Below are positions 1,145 through 23,051 of a stretch of DNA of 64,000 nt, piece after piece. Every line of letters begins with the position of its first letter. The stretch's first letter is position 1. Source of the DNA: Campylobacter sp. CNRCH_2014_0184h (GTDB taxonomy: Bacteria > Campylobacterota > Campylobacteria > Campylobacterales > Campylobacteraceae); assembly GCF_025772985.1 (NCBI RefSeq), contig NZ_JAKMTB010000006.1, positions 1 to 64,000 of the forward strand, read 5' to 3'. A model generated the notes under the pieces. The model was given only the letters and a program-made list of their open reading frames with translations. It ran no database searches and was not told the DNA's origin. The translations under genes and the position numbers were made by a program.

Positions 1145-1198
1145 GTGGTGCGGATGAAAGGACTTGAACCTTCACGCATTGCTGCACCAGATCCTAAG
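1145..1198. repeat. Left attachment site: 54-bp copy of tRNA-Leu 3' half
   Basis: Positions 1145-1198 are identical to 22998-23051, the 3' half of tRNA-Leu(TAG) from the anticodon loop through the encoded CCA. Identity stops at 1199 (C against T at 23052) and before 1145 (A against G). A tyrosine integrase lies 230 bp inside. This is the classical signature of an integrative element inserted at a tRNA 3' end, with the displaced original 3' half left at the far boundary. Confidence 0.93.
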
Positions 1199-1429: not shown

Positions 1430-2560
1430 TTGAAAAATCTAGTAAAAATAAAAGAATATAAGGGTATATATTTTATAGACAAAGATAAGAAATTAGAGGA
1501 TATAAAAGAAATTAGCTTAGTAGAATTACAAAGAAGATTAACTATACCATACGAATTAGCTATAAGATATTATGAAGGAAAAAAATCAAGCTATGAGATA
1601 TTTCCTATTTTAAATAACACCCAGACCCTTAAAAAGAATTGTGAGTTAATTGCCTTGCAAAGAATTAATGGAAAATTTGCAAAGAAATTTAAAGTTAAAG
1701 AACCTAAACTAAATGAAGTGTTTGAAGAATGGATTAGTATGCGAAAAAATACTATTTCTAAAAAACATTACGAGGTAACCATATTTTCATATAATGCACA
1801 TATAAAAGATGTTATAGGAAACATCAAAATAAAACAAGTCAAATTAAAAGATATGCAAAATATTGTCAATAAAATGATTGATCAAGGCAAATCTCCAAGA
1901 ACAACAAAAACAATAAAAGATATACTTTCTCCAGTATTTGAATTTGCTATTAAAAATGATTATATAGAAAAAAATATAGCAAGAGAAATAGAGATACAAA
2001 AATTTGATAACAAAAGATATTTTACTATTGATGATGAGGATAGAAATGCTCTTTATAAAGCTATTATAAATTATGAAAATTTAATGATAAGAGCTATGTT
2101 TATATTTCTTTTACATGGAAGAAGAAAAAGTGAAGTTCTTACATTAAAATGGGACAATATTGACTTTGCTAATAAAATTTATTTTTTACCTTCAAGCCAA
2201 AACAAATCAAGGAAAAACTTACAATTTCCATTAAGTTCTTTACAAATAGAAGCTTTAAAAAGCATTGGAGTAAAAAATAAAGGATATATTTTTATTAAAG
2301 AAGATGGAAACCCCTATAAAGATATAAGATGGCATTGGGATAAAATAAATCAAAAATTAAAAACTCCTATTAGATTACATGACTTAAGACATTTAATAGG
2401 ATATATAGGTATTAATATGGGTATATCTTTAGAAGCTATTGGAGAAGCATTAGGACATTCAAGCATAGGAGTTACAAAAAGATATGCAAATATTAAAAAT
2501 GAAACTATTAATAATACTCTAAATGCTATTTTTAGTAATTTTAAAACTGAAAAACACTAA
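1430..2560 (+). CDS. int: Tyrosine-type site-specific integrase
   Basis: A 376-residue phage-type integrase. It starts at TTG 1430 behind AAAAAGGA. The N-terminal part (about 1-90) would be the arm-binding region, residues 95-180 form the SAM-like core-binding domain, and the catalytic domain follows. The expected active-site residues are visible: Arg232 in HGRRKSE, His317 and Arg320 in LHDLRH, His343 in LGHSS and the nucleophile Tyr352 in TKRYAN; Lys259 is a plausible hairpin lysine. It should recombine the 54-bp tRNA-Leu repeats to insert and excise the island. It lies at the end distal to the intact tRNA. It appears full length and unbroken. Confidence 0.95.
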   Translation: MKNLVKIKEYKGIYFIDKDKKLEDIKEISLVELQRRLTIPYELAIRYYEGKKSSYEIFPILNNTQTLKKNCELIALQRINGKFAKKFKVKEPKLNEVFEEWISMRKNTISKKHYEVTIFSYNAHIKDVIGNIKIKQVKLKDMQNIVNKMIDQGKSPRTTKTIKDILSPVFEFAIKNDYIEKNIAREIEIQKFDNKRYFTIDDEDRNALYKAIINYENLMIRAMFIFLLHGRRKSEVLTLKWDNIDFANKIYFLPSSQNKSRKNLQFPLSSLQIEALKSIGVKNKGYIFIKEDGNPYKDIRWHWDKINQKLKTPIRLHDLRHLIGYIGINMGISLEAIGEALGHSSIGVTKRYANIKNETINNTLNAIFSNFKTEKH

Positions 2561-4892: not shown

Positions 4893-5197
4893 GTGAATAA
4901 TATACCGGAAAAAATTAAAAGAGTAAATATTAAAGATGGGAAGCTTTTATATCATCTAACACCATTAGAAAATTTAGAAAGTATGATTAGAAATGGTTTA
5001 AAACCAAGAAGTAACCTTGATAAAGAAAAATTTATAGATACAGCAAATTCTGATATTATTAACAAAAGAAGTAAAATGAAACTTACTGATTATGTTCCTT
5101 TTCTTTTATATCCAATGGACCCTATGATGGAAGTGTAAGAAAAGCTTATCCCGATAAAGACTTTGCATATATTTGTGTTAGTAGAGAAGCCATATAA
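4893..5197 (+). pseudogene. DarT-like DNA ADP-ribosyltransferase toxin, frameshifted fragment
   Basis: From GTG 4893 the first 79 or so codons read LLYHLTPLENLESMIRNGL and later DYVPFLLYPMDPMM. These match the start of the DarT (DUF4433) fold: a substrate-loop start of the Y-H/R-T type and a VPFyf-P-sPM motif. After 5129 the frame hits TAA. A -1 shift continues with GSVRKAYPDKDFAYICVSRE up to TAA at 5195-5197, which also fits this family. About half of a full toxin is missing and no DarG antitoxin is seen. I read it as a decayed toxin. The family call rests on motif memory. Confidence 0.6.
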
Positions 5198-5751: not shown

Positions 5752-5937
5752 ATGTCAAACATAAATGCTTTTTTATTTGGCTTTACAAATATGTTTAATG
5801 CAGATATTCTTAATGCTATATCATTAAAAGATAGAAAGACAATGGTGGATAATTTTTACAAAAAGTCAGAAGAATTAAGAAAAGGTAGCAATGAACAATA
5901 TAAAACCGAAATCAAAAAAATCACAAAACAAAAATAA
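5752..5937 (+). CDS. Small hypothetical protein, 61 residues
   Basis: I choose ATG 5752 (MSNINAFLFGFTNMFNADIL) because the ribosome-site-like GGGGTAAGG lies just upstream; the earlier in-frame start at 5719 has none. It is a soluble, helical-looking protein with a basic C-terminus. I recognise no family. Its last 47 bases overlap the start of the DUF2335 gene in another frame, so the two are likely coupled. Confidence 0.6.
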   Translation: MSNINAFLFGFTNMFNADILNAISLKDRKTMVDNFYKKSEELRKGSNEQYKTEIKKITKQK

Positions 5938-6322
5938 TATTACTCTTAATCAGCAAAATAATACTTTCATTAATGTTAATTCTTCTTTTGATTGTTTGCC
6001 TAGACTATCAAAAGAAATGCAAGAAAAATGTATTGCTTTAATGGAAAAACAAACAGATCATATTATAGATATTGAAAGAAAACTAATTAATGAAGATAGT
6101 AAAAATCAAGAAGTTATGAGAAATCTAGCTCCAGAGCAAATTAAATATGTAAAAAAAGGACAGATATTTGCTTTTATAATAATTTTAATAGGATTTATAT
6201 TTGGTTTTGCCCTCGCGTATCTTAAATATCCTTGGTTAAGTTTTGTAGGATTTGTTACTTCAATTGGAGTTGTAGCTTCTCAGTTTTTATGGCAAAAGCA
6301 AGAAAAAAATAATAACAAATAA
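5891..6322 (+). CDS. DUF2335-family membrane protein
   Basis: A 143-residue protein starting at ATG 5891 behind AAAGG. It has a low-complexity Asn/Lys/Gln N-terminus (1-30), then a helical region (LPRLSKEMQEKCIALMEKQ) and a basic stretch (YVKKGQ). Two hydrophobic helices follow at about 92-112 and 115-132, with a short charged end. The KKGQIFAFIII start of the first helix and the helix-loop-helix layout match the DUF2335 family. These are small predicted membrane proteins of unknown role, frequent in mobile elements. Confidence 0.75.
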   Translation: MNNIKPKSKKSQNKNNITLNQQNNTFINVNSSFDCLPRLSKEMQEKCIALMEKQTDHIIDIERKLINEDSKNQEVMRNLAPEQIKYVKKGQIFAFIIILIGFIFGFALAYLKYPWLSFVGFVTSIGVVASQFLWQKQEKNNNK

Positions 6323-7457: not shown

Positions 7458-10400
7458 TTATGCAAGCTGTATAATTTTTTTATATTCATCTTCAAAAATG
7501 GCTTTTCTTGTGCATTGATTAGACTTTTTCAAGAAACATTCGAAAAGATTGATAAAAAAATTATCACGAAAAAATATTGCATATTTATTATACTTTTCTG
7601 CTTCTTGTTTTTCTTTTTCACCTCTTTCGTCTATTTTTTCACATGTTATTTTCGGAAGTCCCAATCCTTCTTGAATAAATCCATCTTTAATTTGAGAATC
7701 CTCAAGATACTCATCAATAATTTTCAGAATTTTTGATGATAACGAAGTGGCTTCGTGACTGTTAATAAATTGCCAAAGTAAATCTCCTATAATATATTTC
7801 AAATATAAAATCTTATCATCTGGTTGTGTTTTGGTGGCATAGTTAATTACCTCTTCAATCCATTTTTTCATTTCATCTGTATTCAATATAGGCTGATTTG
7901 TTATTGGATTTAAAAAAGAAAAAAATTTTAAAAAATAAAAGAGATTTTCCCCGTAAGCTTTTTTTGATTTGCTATCAAGTTTTTGCATATCATTATTATT
8001 TGGAAAAATCAAATCGATAAATGAGTGTGGATTTTGAAGCATATATCTTAAAGAAAATATGCAATTAAAATTTCTTAGCTGTAAAAATTTCCATTCTATG
8101 TTAAACATAATAAATAGGTTTAAATCTACTTCTTGTAATTTTTTGATTATTTCTCCATAGTAATATCTTTCTTCATCTCCATTACATTTTTTTGGATCAA
8201 CTTGCAACATTGCATTAGTTATATCTTCTATGTTGATTTTTATTTTATCAAAAGAAATCCATATTGATAATGAGACTCCTAAAAATAACAAAGCCTTTTC
8301 TGGCATATTAAAAGATAATAATGTATAAAAAATTGAGGAAATTAAATTAGAATCTTGTTCAACATATATAGTAAAATTTTCCCAATAATGTTTTTGTTCA
8401 TCGAGATTTTGTTCTTTTAAAATTTTTAATTTTGTATTGTCGGGTTTGCTAATTTTAAATAACTCTATTCTTTGTTGTGCTGTGATAGATTTTAGTTTAA
8501 TATTGTCTTGTAAAATCTTATCAATATTACGTAAAAAGAAGCCTCTTGCGCATAATTGTTTATTTTTTGTATTAGAAACAAGCCATTTAAACATTGTAGA
8601 CTCAAATTTCAAATAATTAATTTCATATATAATTTCACCAATTTTTCCACATACTATAGAACTTGATTCTCTAATTAAAATAAATATATATCTTACCCCT
8701 GCTTGCTGACATATATTTTTTATTGCTTGTAAACGTTGAGTGTGCAAGTGCTCTGAATTCTCTTTTCCATGATATTGAAAAAGATGTAGATTTTCATAAA
8801 GTGGATTGTTAAAACAAATACTTTCCACAAGCTTTTGCATTTTAGTTGTACACTCACGGGATACCGGCCAATTATAATTTTTAATATTTTCAATTTGCTC
8901 AGTAATTTTCTGTTTGATTTCAAATTTCTTTTTGTTATTCGCATTTTTTAAAAAGGTTTCTAATTTATCCACAAAATCCGATTGATATTTAGTGTTAATT
9001 TTTGTTAATATGGATATGCAATAAAAACTTTTTTCAAGATTATTGGTATTTTTCAATATAAGTTGAGTTGCTGCTTCTATGTATTCTGAATATTCATTTG
9101 AAATATTTTTGGAATTAAATTCAAATCCATTGTGCCAATTACGGTGTTTAGGATATGAATGTCCTATTTGTACTTCATAGTTCGACGGCAGGATTCCACA
9201 AAGTATATTCCATATAACTTCACTATTGTTTGTATAAAAATTTTCTAGCAAAGCAATTCTTTTATTATGCGGAGTATTGGTATTATGAATCCATCCGGCA
9301 AATAAAGTTTGAAGTGTGATTAAGCATTCTTTCTTGCAAAAATCATTTTTTTCTAATTCAAATAGCACTTTTACAACTTCTGTAAAATAATTATGATCCC
9401 AAGCAATAATTTTAAGTGTGTAAAAAAGATATTGCGAATCATCAAACAAAAAAGTATCTTTTTCAAAAAACCGCTTTAATAATTCTCGCTCTTTTTTATT
9501 TTTTACCAAAAGTTTAAATTGGTTAATAATTCCTCTTGGACTAGCTTCTGCTAATAAACCTAAAACATCTTTTAAGTTAAAAATAGACTCTACTATATTA
9601 TTTTTATCAATAATATCTTCTATTGTTTTATCTATTTTATGTTGATTATTTGGATTATCCACGGCAAGAATAACCAAAGTATCAGCAAGTTCTTTTCGTA
9701 AAAAACGTGAATGTGTAAAAGTAAAATTGGAAATAAACGCTTGTTTTTCTTTGAATGTTTTATCTTTTTCCAAAAAAACATTTTTTATATTTTCTAGAAA
9801 TAAATCATCAATTGTGTAATTATAAAAATAATTTATGATTAATTTTTTCAAAAGAATTTTATGATAGTGTAAACCTGCTATTTCCAAGAGATTAGTATTT
9901 TTTATATTTTCAATATGTTTTTTTAAATCTATATATTTTTTTTCAGAAATTGCTTCTAAAAAATTCACATCTCCTTTGTACGAAGTATCCCAAGAACCAG
10001 CTAAAAATAAGGGAAGATATGAGTGTAAATCATTTTTTATTATTTTTTCAAGTTTAATCAGGATATTGTTGTCAATGGGTTTTAATTTTGGATGTATGGC
10101 TATAAAATCGAGATTTCCAAAAGTATCTTTATTAATTTTATTTGCCTCCAATATTGAAAATCCCATTTTTTCTAAAACTTGTGTTTTATCTTGCTTGGTA
10201 AGATATATATCATTGTGTTCTTTTGTTATTTCTTTGTTATTTCTTGAAATGCGAACTACAAGATGTTTGCTTGTGGCATATCCAATATTATTTGGCTCAA
10301 ATCCCTCATAAAATAAAATCAATCCGTTATAAACTTCCACAATGTTATCCCAAACATCTTGTGATTGAATAATTAGGGTTCTATCTGTATAATCGGTATT

Positions 10401-11090
10401 TTTTTCTATTATACTTAAAGAAAAAATTAATCCCTCTGATTCTACAGGCGTAATAATATTTATAAGCCCATTTTTATTTTTAAGAGAATTTATAAATGCA
10501 AATTGTTCGTTTTCTCTATTACACAAAACCAACTCATCTTTTAGTTCGACTTGTGTTTGCTTTCTCCAATCTTCTAACCTTGCTGAAATAAGTTTAATGT
10601 TTTGTGGTGGTAACTTACCGATTTCTTGTGCTAAATGTAGAGCAATACTTGGATAGTCTTCTAGCCAAGATTCATAGTCAACAGAATTTAGTGCTTTAAC
10701 TTCTTTCCATTTATGTTCATCTGTATATTTTTTACAAAAAATATCTTTTTTTGTCCATGCTCTAAAAGTGCCAAATATAAAAGTAATATCTGGGTCTGAA
10801 TTATGTAGCCGTTTTTTATAGTCTTTTTCTGCTTTTGAGCCAATCTTTTGATCTGTACCAAATTCCCAAATAGATTTTCCAATGGGGATTATTCTATGAC
10901 GATCTTTGGTTTTTATAAATCCATCATATCCAGGGTTGCTAATACTGTTTCCTTTGGGAAGATAAAATTGTTCTAATTCTACACTTGCCTTAATTAGTCT
11001 ATAAGTAAGATTTGGTAGTAGTTCTTGAGCTCTTCTAGGATTTGTATTACAAAAATTCTCCAAATCTTTAGCGGTAATATTCCATTTCAA
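7458..11090 (-). CDS. Giant putative defence protein with nuclease-like N-terminus
   Basis: A 1210-residue single-gene unit. It starts at TTG 11090; AAGG lies about ten bases upstream and TATAAT at 11112-11107. Residues 25-150 resemble a PD-(D/E)XK-type nuclease module: Asp56 in NPGYDG, Glu76 in SIWEFGTD, and Lys86/Lys89 in KAEKDYKKR. This is followed by FIFGTFRAWTKK and WKEVKALNSVDYESWLEDYP. Residues 190-350 sit where STAND-type proteins have their NTPase, but the expected P-loop reads ITPVESEGLIF, so it is absent or degenerate. The remaining 800 or so residues look like a long helical, probably repeat-type sensor. Large single-gene proteins of this plan are often antiphage proteins, and the neighbours fit. 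The nuclease and defence roles are inference. Confidence 0.7.
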   Translation of the reverse strand: MKWNITAKDLENFCNTNPRRAQELLPNLTYRLIKASVELEQFYLPKGNSISNPGYDGFIKTKDRHRIIPIGKSIWEFGTDQKIGSKAEKDYKKRLHNSDPDITFIFGTFRAWTKKDIFCKKYTDEHKWKEVKALNSVDYESWLEDYPSIALHLAQEIGKLPPQNIKLISARLEDWRKQTQVELKDELVLCNRENEQFAFINSLKNKNGLINIITPVESEGLIFSLSIIEKNTDYTDRTLIIQSQDVWDNIVEVYNGLILFYEGFEPNNIGYATSKHLVVRISRNNKEITKEHNDIYLTKQDKTQVLEKMGFSILEANKINKDTFGNLDFIAIHPKLKPIDNNILIKLEKIIKNDLHSYLPLFLAGSWDTSYKGDVNFLEAISEKKYIDLKKHIENIKNTNLLEIAGLHYHKILLKKLIINYFYNYTIDDLFLENIKNVFLEKDKTFKEKQAFISNFTFTHSRFLRKELADTLVILAVDNPNNQHKIDKTIEDIIDKNNIVESIFNLKDVLGLLAEASPRGIINQFKLLVKNKKERELLKRFFEKDTFLFDDSQYLFYTLKIIAWDHNYFTEVVKVLFELEKNDFCKKECLITLQTLFAGWIHNTNTPHNKRIALLENFYTNNSEVIWNILCGILPSNYEVQIGHSYPKHRNWHNGFEFNSKNISNEYSEYIEAATQLILKNTNNLEKSFYCISILTKINTKYQSDFVDKLETFLKNANNKKKFEIKQKITEQIENIKNYNWPVSRECTTKMQKLVESICFNNPLYENLHLFQYHGKENSEHLHTQRLQAIKNICQQAGVRYIFILIRESSSIVCGKIGEIIYEINYLKFESTMFKWLVSNTKNKQLCARGFFLRNIDKILQDNIKLKSITAQQRIELFKISKPDNTKLKILKEQNLDEQKHYWENFTIYVEQDSNLISSIFYTLLSFNMPEKALLFLGVSLSIWISFDKIKINIEDITNAMLQVDPKKCNGDEERYYYGEIIKKLQEVDLNLFIMFNIEWKFLQLRNFNCIFSLRYMLQNPHSFIDLIFPNNNDMQKLDSKSKKAYGENLFYFLKFFSFLNPITNQPILNTDEMKKWIEEVINYATKTQPDDKILYLKYIIGDLLWQFINSHEATSLSSKILKIIDEYLEDSQIKDGFIQEGLGLPKITCEKIDERGEKEKQEAEKYNKYAIFFRDNFFINLFECFLKKSNQCTRKAIFEDEYKKIIQLA

Positions 11091-12749: not shown

Positions 12750-13133
12750 CTAGATTGTAGGCATTTTCAATGTTTTTTGCGCATATTCACTATATGCAAC
12801 TTCAACTATAAAAGGCTTATTTGTATCAGTTCTATAAACCTCACAAATTGCAACCAAATCTTGAGTGTATTGCCATTGATTATTCACTAATTTTGGATAG
12901 TTTTTAATCTCACTATAAGAACGAATACCACCAAATTTTCCGCTTTTGTGAGCAATAGCCAAAAAGCCATCTCTACCCACTAAAGGTTCTATTTTTTCAA
13001 CCCACACATCTTTACCATTTTTTGTAACTTTTGCCCTATGAGGAACAAAAAATACTTGGCGTAAGAAAGGATCTAGATCATATTTAGTTACAACACTAAG
13101 GTAATATTTTATTTCTGTTTTATTGCTCCCAAC
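12750..13133 (-). pseudogene. Bet/RecT-type annealing protein fragment
   Basis: The open frame begins after a stop at about 13134, with no start codon. It reads YYLSVVTKYDLDPFLRQVFF, then GRDGFLAIAHKSGKFGG, then WQYTQDLVAICEVYRTD, and ends AYSEYAQKTLKMPTI at 12750. LDPF-RQ, the DGF--IA--SGK-GG element and the Y-EY-QKT-...-MP ending are diagnostic of phage Bet/RecT single-strand annealing proteins. The N-terminus is gone, the residues usually present between AQKT and MP are deleted, and the C-terminus is lost. It is a remnant of a phage recombination module. Confidence 0.75.
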
Positions 13134-14546: not shown

Positions 14547-17078
14547 TTATGTATTCAAAAATTCATCAAAACTACTAACAAATTTATCATTCATCTTTAA
14601 ATCTTTGTTTATAAAAAACGGCAAGGATTGAAGGGTTAATTTCTTGCCATCTTTAGTGGTAATTATTTTTCCCTTTAAAGCCTCTAAAAATTCTTCCTTC
14701 CAAGTATCTTTTGCTATTGCTAAATGCTCCCCTTTTGTTTCTATAAAACATTGTATACTTAAAAAATTATCATCATCTTTATTTTTCTTACCAAAGAAAA
14801 TAAAATCAGGTTCAAATCCCATAGCATAAGTTACTTCATCTTTTCTATTGTCATAAATTTTAAATTCTTCAAATCCTTCATTTCTTATAACAAACCAGTC
14901 GGAAAAAACATTATCAATTTCATCTTTGTATTCTTCTATGAAAATTAAAAAATCTTTTTCTAATTTACTGTCAAAACAAAAAGTTTTGTGATAAAGCCAC
15001 TCAAAATTCATTTCCTCAAAATTCTCTTTATTTTTAAATACTACCTTATTACCTATATTAAATTCATGAGTTATAAACTCACTTACTTCGTATTCTTGCT
15101 TTATGCCTTGCTTTAGCGATTTAAAATTTTCTAAAATATATTTGGCTATTTCAAGATTGTTTATTTGATTAAACTCTTGTCGTTTTGAAAAACAAACAAC
15201 TATATCTTTCAAACAATTTTCTATAAAATCTTTTTTACTTTTAAAAGCAAAATTTTCATTGATTTTATTAAAATCAAGTCCTAATATATTCATCGCCTTT
15301 AAAAAGTATATGCTATCTATATGATTAAGAGCAGATGGTTTTTGAAGATCATATTCTTCTTTGATTTCTTCAAATTTCTCCTCACTTTCTTTTATAGAAT
15401 TTGAAAAATAAGGAATTTGCAAACCTTTTATTTTTTGCTCCATCTCTATTCTTGTAATGTAAAAATTTTTCAAATCACGTTTTTTGATTCTTTTATTATT
15501 AGCGTAATATATTTTGTTATTTTTAATAATCTCTTTTATTTTTTCATTGACTATTAAATCTATGCGTGTTTTTTCCTCCTCAAATAATAATCCTTCTTTA
15601 TTCATACTTTCATTGAGTTGCTTAATAAACTCAACATCATTTCTAGTATGATAAGTTAATTTCTCTAAAGCATTTAACTCATTTTCAAGATCACTATCAT
15701 ACTTTCTTTTAAATTTAAGCTCATCATCAAAATCAAATAAATCGCTTTTGAAAGGATAATATCTAGCACCTCTTCCTATAAGTTGTGCTTCCTTCGTGGT
15801 TATTGTTTTACTTGCCTTTTTATTTCCAAGTCTAACTATATCAAAAAGATTTAAAACATCCCATCCTTCATTAAGTTTATCAACGCAAAAAATAACTCTT
15901 ATTTGATTGTCTTTTTCCTCTAAGCTATTAAGTAAAATTTGATTTTTTTCTAGATCTTTATCATCATTTGTGTTTAACATATAAAGCGTTTTAAAATTAT
16001 TTTTCAAAAAATTTACAATAGTTTTTGCATAAGTATTTTGATATTCTCTTTTAAAAAACTCTAAGCTTTTGTTTAAAAGATCACTTTCTTTGTTTATATT
16101 TTTATAAAAATCTTCTATATGCAAGCTTTCTAAATTATCTATAAAATCTATAAATTTTTCTTGATTTTGCATAGATTCTTTTATAGATTCACTCTTAAAT
16201 AAAACAACAGGTTTTAAAACAATGTTATATTTTTGAGCCAACAACTCTCTATAAAGACTACAAAGCACAGCTCCTAAAAATCTATGTTCTAAACTATCAT
16301 TATCATATTTCACTAAAAATATACGCTTAGAATATCCATCTTTACAAAATTCTCTTAAGGTGTATTCATAAATGATTTTATCTTGATATTTTTCCAAAAC
16401 ATTGAATTCTTGCGGAATAGTAGCACTAAATTCAAATAATAAATTTTCATTATTACTTTCATAAGCTCTTTTTATAATAGCTTCCCAACCTTCTTTAAGT
16501 TCATTTTCATTTTTAGTATCACTATTTAAATGATGAGCTTCATCAGCTAAAAATACAAGCTTTTTATCTTTTAAATCTTCAAAACTTAAAGAATTTTCCC
16601 TTTCATTTTTAAAAAGAGAAAACAAGGCTTGTATGGTGGTAAAATATATATTTATACAATTATCTTTACTTTCAAAAAGATTATTGATAATGTTAATTTC
16701 TATATTTTTAGAATCTATATTTATATTTTCTTTAAAAAGATATTTACTTGAGTATTTGTTGGCAAAATTTGCTTTTGTTTTTTCTAAAATCGAAGTAGAA
16801 TTTACAAAAAAGATAAAATTTCTATATCCTTTTTTATAACAATCTAACATTAAAGCAGCCATTATAAGTGTTTTTCCACTTCCTGTTGCCATGTTAAACA
16901 TTAAATGTCTTTGTTTTATGCTATCAAAATTTGCATAATAATACTTTAGAGCTTTTTCTTGATAAATTCTTAATTCTTTTGATAAATTCTCTTTTACATA
17001 AAAAGGAATTTCTATTTGTTCTATACCTCTTTTTCCAAATTCATCCTGTAAAAGCTCATGTAATTTTTTATTAAACAT
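14547..17078 (-). CDS. res: Type III restriction enzyme, Res subunit
   Basis: I choose ATG 17078 ([10 protein letters not shown]), giving 843 residues, because GGTGA lies eight bases upstream and the mod stop is overlapped by eight bases; the frame is open to 17102. The protein is a superfamily 2 helicase-nuclease. Walker A is ATGSGKT at residues 64-70, and the DEAH box is at 179-182 (ADEAHHLN). A late helicase motif reads [11 protein letters not shown]. The C-terminal PD-(D/E)XK nuclease shows EPDFIFF and IETKG near residues 785-810. With Mod it should cleave DNA after ATP-dependent one-dimensional translocation or diffusion between head-to-head unmodified sites. It appears intact. Confidence 0.93.
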
Positions 17079-18798
17079 TTTCATCACCATAAAGTATTTC
17101 ATTAAGTTTTATTGTTTCTTTAGATATAGCATAATCTTCATCTTTTATATCACCATATAAAACATAATCCATATTAGAATCTAAAACAAGTTTTAAAATT
17201 TCTTTTTTGCTTTCTAAGTCTAAATTTTCAAATTCTTTATCTTTTAAAATTTCATTTATATCTACTCTATAATCTAAAAAAGCTTTAGTTTTTAACTCTT
17301 GATAAATACCATCTAGCTCTTTTTCATCATTTAAATTTTGTATTTTTTCTTTATAAATTGCATTAAGTGGCATAAGCTCAGCATAAACAAAATTTCCACC
17401 ACCTTGCCAATTTACTGCTTTGCTGATACCACCTTGTTCACCTTCTATTACTTTTTTGAGTCTTTCTTTTGTGATGGTTTCTATATAATCCATTTGTTCT
17501 ATGCCTATCCATTTTCGTTTCATTTTATGAGCAACGGCTAAAGTGGTGCCACTTCCTGCAAAAAAGTCCATTACTATGTCGTTTTCGTTTGTGCTTGCTT
17601 CTATAATTCTTTGTAATAATGCTTCGGGTTTTTGTCCTTTAAAATTGTCATTATAGTAAATCACGGTTTCTTCTAATCTTGAAGTAGAATTATCTATTGC
17701 AAGTGAATTTAATTTATCCCATTTATTACAGTTCCATGTATCTTCAATAGCATATTTATCATTTCTCATTTCATGATTTACGTAATTATAAAAACTTTCT
17801 TGTAAATTCATATCAAACTTAAAATTTTTAAAAATATTATTAATTTCACCTTTATTTAATATAGGTGCAAAATCTTTATTCTGTATATATCTTTTATTAA
17901 ATAAATAGTTATTTTCTTGTTTAGAATAAAATAAAATACAATCATAATTTCTAATATATTTATTAGCAATAGTTTTATATCCACTTACAAATCCCATTCT
18001 CCATATTATTTGCGTAACAAAATTATCTCTACCAAAAATTTCATCCATTAATACCTTTAAATAATGTACTTCATTGTAATCGATATTGATATATATACTT
18101 CCATCATCACTTAAAAATTCTCTAGCGATTTCTAAACGATTTTTCATAAAAGTAAGCCAAGTAGAATGATTAAATTTATCATTATAATTAAAACTATCGT
18201 TGCCAGTATTATAAGGTGGGTCAATGTAGATTAGTTTTACCTTGCTGCGATATTTTTTCTTAAGAGAATGAAGTGCTAAAAGATTATTGCCTTTTATAAG
18301 TAAATTCGGCTCTTCTTTCATCGTTTTTTCTAAATTATTATCGCCAATAATTTCGAAATTTTGAAGTGCTTTTGGAGCAAATAAAGCATCTATTTCATCA
18401 CGAGCTAGTATTTCATTGAAAAATATTTCATTTTGAGTTTCATCATCTTTGCTTTGTCCACCTTTTATAACACCATCTTTAAAAGCAAAATTTAACACCA
18501 CTTCGTTATTTGTTTTTAAAAGAGATTTTGTTTTATTTGCAAGTCCTATTTTGTTAGCATAGCTTGTAAAACTACCACCTAAGCTTCTAAGATCTAAAAA
18601 ATTTAAAAAATCATTAAGCTTAAAAACCAAAGTTTTTTTGCTGAAAATAAAAAATCTACTTTTAAATTCTTCTTTATGTTTACTTTCTTCTAAAAGATAA
18701 TCAAATAATTTCTCATCGTAATTTTGTGCTAAATTTCTAACTTGTCCTAAAGTTTCAAAATATTCTTCTAAATCCTGCAATAATTTATCTTTTAGCAT
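17071..18798 (-). CDS. mod: Type III DNA adenine methyltransferase, Mod subunit
   Basis: A 575-residue beta-class N6-adenine methyltransferase: motif IV DPPYNT at 193-198 precedes motif I FAGSGT at 413-418. The region between (about 240-400) is the target recognition domain and sets the site specificity, which cannot be read from sequence. It starts at ATG 18798 behind AGGAAATAA, with TATAAT at 18832-18827. Unlike many phase-variable mod genes, I see no long homopolymer or tandem repeat in it. It forms an operon with res. It is slightly short for the family but has all core motifs. Confidence 0.94.
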
Positions 18799-19131: not shown

Positions 19132-20892
19132 ATGAATAAGATTGATAATATTGCAAATTTTTTAGATAGCAACTCTAAAAAATGTTTAGCTATAAATGGG
19201 TCTTGGGGCATAGGTAAAACTTATTTATGGAAACAAGTTGAAAATAAACTTTCTGAAATAAATGCAGATAAAAAGATTGTTTATATAGATCTTTTTGGCA
19301 AAGAAAGTTATAAGCAGATATTAGAAGAAATAGTTTTTAAAATTCATGGAAACTACAATAAAATAATGAATACTTTTTCACAAATTGCAACCAAAATTGC
19401 AAAAATAAAATCTGCCGGAACAATTAACATTAACCCTGATGCTATTTTCTCATTTTTAAAAAAAGAAGATTTTAAAAAAGTTATTGTGTGTTTTGATAAC
19501 ATAGAAAGAAGAACTGATAATCTTTCTTTGAAAGAAATTTTAGGACTTGTAAATTTACTTAAAGAAGAAAAAGAATGTAATGTTGTTGTGATTTTTCACG
19601 AGAAAGAACTAAAAGAACAAGATGATAATTTGACTGAAAATAATAAAGAAGAAGAGACTGAACAAGATTTTAATAGTTGGTATCAAAAAGCTAAAGAAGA
19701 ACAAACCAAACAATATAATAGTAAAAACTGGTATCAAATATACAAAGAAAAGGTTATTGATTGTGAAATAACGATAAAAAACAATGATGAAATAGCAAAG
19801 GCAATCATAAAAGATAGAATAAATAAATATACTAAAATTACAGATGAGATAAGAAATATTATTGAAAATATTATTTTCGAAAGATATAAAGAACAATGCA
19901 ATGGAAATCTAAGATTGCTATATCATGTGTTAGAGCATATAGATTATTTTAACAAGCATTGTTTTTTATTGTTTTGCAAGTATGAAAATAAAAAAACATT
20001 TTCAGATGCTCTAAAATTAAGTTATAAATCATTAATATCTAAAACTAAAAAATATCTTTCTATTAAAATAGAAGAAAATGATTTATCTTCAAGCTACCAT
20101 CTTTACGAAAAATACCTAAAAAATATGTTTTATTTAAGTAAAGAAGAAAAATACCAACTAAGACGCGATTTTTATCAAACTTTAAAAATTGATCTTTATT
20201 ATAAACTTCAAAACTGCAAGATAGAATATTTGGTAGGTAATTTAAGTGATAAACAATTTGTAAAAGATATTGAAAATTCACTCCTAAAAATAGATTTTTA
20301 TTCAAAAAATGGAATGACACACTATCCTTATGGTTTTTATCAAAACTTACTTTCAACTTACACACAAATTACAAAGAAAAAATTAAGCAACATAGAAGAA
20401 AAAATCAATCAGCACTATATAGAAGCTCTTGTTATGGAAGAATTAGAATTTGATTTTCGCGATGATTATAAATCAGATAAAGATTTTTTAAAATTATTAA
20501 AAGATGAAAAATGGAAGCGTTGTTATGAAGATACCAAAGAAAAATATAAAATAAGCAAGTATGAAAGTATTAATGCTTTTATTAATAGCTATGAGAATAT
20601 AGAAAGTAGTTTTTATCCCGAAGCGATCAAGCAATATAATTTTTTTAAAAAAGAAGAATTAGTACAGCTATTTAAAAATAATAACAATTTTTGTAGGAAA
20701 TTTTTTAATCATTTTTCTATGAATATGGTTGCAAGTCATAAATTTGATGATGATTTAAATAATAATTTATTTCAAGCTTATTTAGATTTTTTAGATTTAG
20801 ATGAAAATAAAATAAAAAAAAGTGTTGTTTTAGAATATATAAATTCACAAAATAGTGTATTAAGAAAGCTACTAATAGAAAATAATCACTAG
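19132..20892 (+). CDS. KAP-type P-loop NTPase
   Basis: A 586-residue protein. Walker A is GSWGIGKT at residues 23-30. A hydrophobic strand, KKVIVCFDNIERR, ends in a Walker B-like Asp122 at about 115-127. The rest is long, helical and charged (about 200-586), with no predicted membrane helix. The GSWG-GKT P-loop close to the N-terminus and the FDxIER motif are features of KAP-family NTPases, many of which occur in mobile islands and some in antiphage systems. It lies next to the type III R-M pair but is divergently transcribed, so it is probably an independent unit. The defence role is inferred from context. Confidence 0.8.
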   Translation: MNKIDNIANFLDSNSKKCLAINGSWGIGKTYLWKQVENKLSEINADKKIVYIDLFGKESYKQILEEIVFKIHGNYNKIMNTFSQIATKIAKIKSAGTININPDAIFSFLKKEDFKKVIVCFDNIERRTDNLSLKEILGLVNLLKEEKECNVVVIFHEKELKEQDDNLTENNKEEETEQDFNSWYQKAKEEQTKQYNSKNWYQIYKEKVIDCEITIKNNDEIAKAIIKDRINKYTKITDEIRNIIENIIFERYKEQCNGNLRLLYHVLEHIDYFNKHCFLLFCKYENKKTFSDALKLSYKSLISKTKKYLSIKIEENDLSSSYHLYEKYLKNMFYLSKEEKYQLRRDFYQTLKIDLYYKLQNCKIEYLVGNLSDKQFVKDIENSLLKIDFYSKNGMTHYPYGFYQNLLSTYTQITKKKLSNIEEKINQHYIEALVMEELEFDFRDDYKSDKDFLKLLKDEKWKRCYEDTKEKYKISKYESINAFINSYENIESSFYPEAIKQYNFFKKEELVQLFKNNNNFCRKFFNHFSMNMVASHKFDDDLNNNLFQAYLDFLDLDENKIKKSVVLEYINSQNSVLRKLLIENNH

Positions 20893-22997: not shown

Positions 22998-23051
22998 GTG
23001 GTGCGGATGAAAGGACTTGAACCTTCACGCATTGCTGCACCAGATCCTAAG
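22998..23051. repeat. Right attachment site within tRNA-Leu
   Basis: 54 bp identical to 1145-1198. It covers the tRNA-Leu 3' half from the anticodon loop to the CCA end plus one base. Confidence 0.93.

Follow-up and report, generated by a model that had tools for sequence, protein, structure and literature searches.

Gene and genomic island

The window is the whole stretch of DNA that was analysed, 64,000 nucleotides from a Campylobacter genome of approximately 1.55 Mb with low G+C content. An earlier sequence-only reading had placed a 1210-residue frame at positions 7458-11090. The frame fills this interval exactly and is intact, and its strand was corrected to minus (11090 to 7458); the plus strand over the same interval carries many stops. 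The gene is present in one copy in the genome and begins with a TTG codon at 11090. Its protein starts at the same point as the Helicobacter trogontum homologue (MKWNITAKDLENF / MNWSVTAKELNNF), which is 53% identical to the window protein. The features of the gene and of its surroundings are as follows.

7458..11090, minus strand: whole gene, 1210 aa, TTG start, intact frame
11101-11098, minus strand: ribosome-binding site AAGG, 7 bases upstream of the TTG
10611..11090, minus strand: N-terminal nuclease-like domain, aa 1-160 (conserved residues, model topology, weak Foldseek similarity)
10071..10544, minus strand: inactive STAND / AAA+-like domain, aa 183-340 (top Foldseek PDB matches Avs3, ORC and CED-4; colinear with the STAND of PD-lambda-4_A)
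10428..10451, minus strand: aa 214-221, TPVESEGL, where the P-loop has been lost (A-[DE]-S-x-x-[DE]-A across the family)
7461..10058, minus strand: winged-helix-like region and helical solenoid, aa 345-1210 (helical model, core profile)
1145..1198, no strand: distal attachment repeat, 54 bp, identical to 22998-23051
22998..23051, no strand: the 54-bp attachment repeat in the 3' half of tRNA-Leu(TAG)
1430..2560, plus strand: putative tyrosine-type integrase of the island (read from the sequence)
14547..17102, minus strand: type III restriction subunit, Res
17071..18798, minus strand: type III methyltransferase, Mod
19132..20892, plus strand: KAP-family P-loop NTPase (PADLOC PDC-S49, a candidate defence gene)

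The perfect 54-bp direct repeat bounds a 21.9-kb island at tRNA-Leu(TAG). The gene had been said to lie among defence genes, which agrees with the type III Mod and Res genes (14547-18798) and the KAP NTPase of the same island. An 81-aa fragment on the plus strand (4893-5138) matches the start of DarT (Pfam E 4e-11) and is ended by a stop; it represents the remnant of a DarTG-type system within the island. DarT is a toxin that ADP-ribosylates thymidine in single-stranded DNA. A fragment of a RecT-family recombinase on the minus strand (12753-13007, Pfam E 1e-9) is probably a phage remnant within the island. Just past the 3' end of the 1210-aa gene, on the opposite strand, lies a 143-aa protein with two hydrophobic stretches (5891-6322, plus strand) and no confident family match.

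Relatives and their distribution

Searches of Pfam, NCBIfam, PADLOC and PDB sequences with the single window protein gave no family match, and a Pfam hit to PduV-EutP (E 0.034) was attributed to chance. A profile search of PDB sequences likewise found no match. The scan of genome contigs with a single sequence found no relatives; with a three-sequence profile, relatives were recovered. Viral-contig scans gave nothing with profiles A3 and A5 and mostly HTH-only matches with profile A6. The window protein matched 20 plasmid records and one phage record by tblastn. When genomes were searched with an alignment, 6 of 298 from the phylum of the window genome gave matches, as did 7 of 369 from the class of a Pandoraea genome and 14 of 400 from the class of a Paenibacillus genome; the figures for the two classes also count weak matches, part of which are to proteins of PD-lambda-4_A type. 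Family loci (L numbers below) came from Pseudomonadota, Bacillota, Actinomycetota and Bacteroidota and from Latescibacteria and Parachlamydiaceae MAGs. Such a wide but sparse spread is as expected for a defence gene that moves horizontally.

PD-lambda-4 is an experimentally antiphage system, whose protein A is PADLOC PDLC03991 (Vassallo et al. 2022, PMC9519451). Aligned with hhalign, the family and PD-lambda-4_A matched with a probability of 99.0 (E 3e-18), colinear over residues 7-794, and the core profile recovered all seven PD-lambda-4_A sequences (E 7e-13 to 1e-7). By profile comparison the family is thus a colinear sister of PD-lambda-4_A. The two have a common domain order, with a nuclease-like head, a STAND and a long helical part, and similar lengths (1272 aa against 1210 aa for the window protein). 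They differ in that GxSGVGKT is found in 7 of 7 sampled PD-lambda-4_A sequences and is absent from all 33 of the window family, and in that the head motif of PD-lambda-4_A is GGxD...QVK, with QxK in place of the E...K spacing seen here. The "A" of the model name suggests that a partner gene exists; none recurs among the 458 neighbours of the window family. The PADLOC model of PD-lambda-4_A did not match the window protein at E<=1 and matched the relative L008 only partially (E 5e-5).

Nuclease-like head

The head carries the motif Gx-D56-G ... P-x-G ... W-E76-F-G ... K86-A-x-x-D90-Y-x-x-R94. The sequence-only reading had named Asp56, Glu76 and Lys86/89 as nuclease-like residues. The first three are identical in all 33 nuclease-bearing homologues, which come from several phyla, with Asp90 in 32 and Arg94 in 31 of them, but Lys89 is not a motif of the family. 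The AlphaFold2 model of aa 1-460, made from an alignment of only 20 sequences, reached a pLDDT of 80.6 and a pTM of 0.73. Its head is composed of H18-36, E39-43, E57-61, E71-77, H83-97 and E102-107. This predicted alpha-beta-beta-beta-alpha-beta topology is the core order of a PD-(D/E)XK fold, with D56 at the edge of the second strand, E76 within the third and K86 opening the next helix. In a viral library, Foldseek matched the head weakly with an endodeoxyribonuclease I and with a restriction endonuclease of a phage. The (D/E)-x-K spacing of PD-(D/E)XK enzymes is absent, as E76-F-G is followed by the invariant K86. Because K86 opens the helix after the strand of E76, we read this lysine as migrated.

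Middle domain

The best Foldseek PDB matches of the same model were Avs3-terminase 8dgc (E 7.8e-5 and 2e-4), followed by ORC and CED-4, and RFC clamp loaders were matched in the viral library. The TM-scores were low (about 0.2-0.3), and the fold assignments therefore rest on local similarity. Within this limit, the predicted AAA+/STAND-like fold is kept.

The place of the STAND P-loop was set by profile alignment to PD-lambda-4_A, whose GLSGVGKT aligns with T214-L221 and whose Walker lysine aligns with G220. The hhalign alignment is gap-free in this region, with V-R-L-V-GLSGVGKT of PD-lambda-4_A on I-N-I-I-TPVESEGL. The expected P-loop had been described as missing, and this proved to be a property of the family: none of the 33 nuclease-bearing homologues has [AG]x4GK[ST] at this position. 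Position 220 is Ala, Val, Gly or Ser and never Lys, and position 219, a glycine in the P-loop, is Glu or Asp in 33 of 33. No conserved Walker B acid was found in the 33 homologues, the common residues at the Walker B aspartate position not being acidic. Four [AG]x4GK[ST] matches elsewhere in the family are at chance level (4 against approximately 2 expected, at 5.5% per shuffled protein). As an acid is conserved where the phosphate-binding glycine stood, the loss of nucleotide binding appears to be old and fixed, rather than decay in one copy.

An inactive STAND (iSTAND) is defined by a STAND/ORC-like fold in which the Walker A and Walker B motifs are eroded, and the middle domain has this form. 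Studies have described iSTAND and iSTAND2 domains in ternary MoxR-vWA conflict systems (PMC7159879, PMC8195603) and iSTANDs in the BREX proteins BrxB, BrxF and PglW (PMC12839542), and one proposal is that such domains still bind nucleic acid, as ancestral ORC/STAND domains did (PMC8195603). The window family resembles them in its STAND/ORC-Cdc6-type AAA+ fold with degenerate Walker motifs. Known iSTANDs are parts of multi-gene systems, however, whereas here effector, iSTAND and sensor lie in one polypeptide. STANDs without a P-loop have been described before in other defence systems. The absence of an ATP site, which had been called mechanistically unusual, is therefore unusual but not unprecedented.

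Solenoid and exchanged heads

The model of aa 330-1210 is almost wholly helical (pLDDT 79), in line with the approximately 800 helical residues reported earlier, and its best PDB similarity is to HEAT-type proteins. Throughout the family, the C-terminal 870 residues or so are the core that stays constant. Members with other heads were matched by a profile of aa 345-1210 (E 1e-174 to 1e-253) and not by the profile of the nuclease head. For example, L015, which belongs to the same order as the window genome and is sister to L012 on the core tree, has hydrophobic, TM-like helices as its head and keeps the iSTAND. The head of L056 is SLFN_AlbA_2 (Pfam E 6e-14), and that of L004, L072 and L073 carries GGxxFE...DDLI...QIK, which is QxK nuclease-like. 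A Cap4-like reading of the latter was not adopted, the sequence pattern being its sole basis. L074 has another head of no assigned type, and L006 is headless. To fit the core tree, the nuclease head must have been lost or gained at least three times.

In L004, L056 and L006 the solenoid stays and the iSTAND is gone. The iSTAND is often replaced along with the head and therefore travels with the effector side. As in Avs and NLR proteins, in which the constant part is the sensor and the variable part the effector, the solenoid is presumed to be the sensor and the exchangeable heads the effectors. An N-terminal DNA-binding domain of Xre, HigA-like or HTH_17 type is also present in many members.

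Genomic neighbourhoods

Repeatedly, homologues have defence genes as neighbours or lie on mobile elements. The PADLOC and Pfam surveys of 84 neighbours serve as description, since no control set was scanned. Loci of relatives hold SIR2, AbiEii and RES/Xre (L005), an Abi gene (L004), and Shedu and SLATT/RT (L002); L025 sits within a type I hsdM-S-R locus, and L031 adjoins one. Other members are on plasmids and phage contigs, and some are near regulators and recombinases. In L033 (5507-9286 and 9672-13487; G932:C23), a family member directly adjoins a PD-lambda-4_A gene, so that P-loop-less and P-loop-bearing sisters stand side by side. Among 458 neighbours no partner gene recurred at E<1e-5, and the system is therefore probably a single gene.

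Interpretation

The intact gene, the conserved nuclease-like head, the P-loop-less middle, the solenoid with its swapped heads, the homology to PD-lambda-4_A and the mobile island beside restriction genes make it fairly likely, in our view, that the protein is a single-gene, NLR-like antiphage candidate of nuclease-STAND-solenoid type with an iSTAND hub. In other words, it is probably a virus alarm on a mobile island. The earlier reading had named three outcomes that would refute it, namely no predicted nuclease fold, an intact P-loop, or homologues consistently in non-defence contexts, and none of them was seen. Against this interpretation we counted that the window protein belongs to no Pfam, NCBIfam, PADLOC or PDB sequence family, that the lysine spacing is non-canonical, that the TM-scores are low and the alignment behind the model is shallow, and that members with HTH fusions might instead be regulators or target DNA.

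The effector, STAND and helical repeat arrangement is that of the Avs type, within the limits of low TM-scores and local similarity. The top fold match, Avs3 of AVAST (8dgc), likewise joins a nuclease head, a STAND hub and C-terminal helical repeats in one polypeptide. Avs3 has about 2000 aa and an ATP site, and the window family differs from Avs in lacking the Walker A and B motifs of a nucleotide-binding STAND. The PDB sequence search detected no sequence similarity between the window protein and Avs3. STAND/NLR immune proteins, among them Avs and the NLRs of plants and animals, are regarded as switches that depend on ATP/ADP. In Avs5, changing the Walker A Gly or Lys to Ala alone abolishes immunity (PMC12931631); because both residues are essential there, the window family must use another switch.

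In the mechanism we propose, a phage-derived trigger would bind the solenoid, and the bound protein would rearrange or oligomerise by way of its iSTAND hub, with no exchange of nucleotide. Alternatively, the hub itself may contact nucleic acid, an activity that has been suggested for other iSTANDs. DNA would then be cut by the head, which is of PD-(D/E)XK type and bears D56, E76 and K86, and the infection would be aborted. Such a nucleotide-free switch, in which a conserved acidic motif replaces the P-loop, trigger binding and conformational coupling alone would release the putative effector, and one sensor core serves nuclease, membrane and AlbA-type heads alike, is offered tentatively, at a little under an even chance. 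With the same layout but lacking an ATP site, this broad bacterial family offers a natural test of whether the architecture requires nucleotide exchange or uses it as one control option, and the ATP-competent sister PD-lambda-4_A, sometimes encoded next door, provides a natural comparison pair. The effector-swapping family also joins the single-gene defence candidates that current libraries miss. Among open-licence texts we found no description of a single-protein nuclease-iSTAND-solenoid family. Upx was considered and is not claimed as its identity because no PADLOC single-gene nuclease model matched.

A restriction-type action is a less likely explanation, to which we give roughly one chance in a handful. 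The solenoid and iSTAND would bind invading DNA directly, through its ends, its replication intermediates or its state of modification, and cleavage by the head would follow without suicide of the cell, the iSTAND serving as a DNA-binding platform rather than an oligomerisation hub. The ancestral nucleic-acid binding proposed for iSTANDs (PMC8195603), the HTH-type N-termini of many members and the restriction systems among the neighbours are in keeping with this. However, the same core bears heads that are unable to cut DNA in cis (the TM helices of L015, the SLFN/AlbA_2 of L056), and members that keep the solenoid after loss of the iSTAND fit a protein-triggered sensor better.

It is very improbable that the domain is an ordinary Avs-like switch that binds ATP/ADP through non-canonical residues of a divergent pocket. 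The AAA+-like fold is retained, and AAA+ proteins with altered motifs can still bind nucleotide. Against this stand the residues at positions 219 and 220, the non-acidic Walker B position and the Avs5 mutants (PMC12931631). Equally improbable is a role outside defence, as a regulator or maintenance protein of mobile elements (an HTH-fused large regulator, or plasmid competition or incompatibility), which the HTH fusions, the members on plasmids, islands and phage contigs and the nearby regulators and recombinases would suit, but which the invariant nuclease residues, the swapped effector-type heads, the repeated siting among restriction and Abi genes and the homology to experimentally antiphage PD-lambda-4 oppose; plasmid exclusion would still count as a defence-like use.

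Split and headless members

The headless member opens with a short SQNHTGTGHNVAGDLTIYN-type peptide (L006:8866-8970), which may be a motif for signalling or assembly. Pfam did not confirm the upstream ORF of L064 (RNEHYH) as HEPN, and this reading is not claimed. Some members are split into two overlapping frames, namely L063/L064 (G421, G554), L016/L017 (G260) and L044. L063 and L064 are split at an identical place within the winged-helix-like region, for which a shared frameshift, a two-gene form and programmed frameshifting are candidates.
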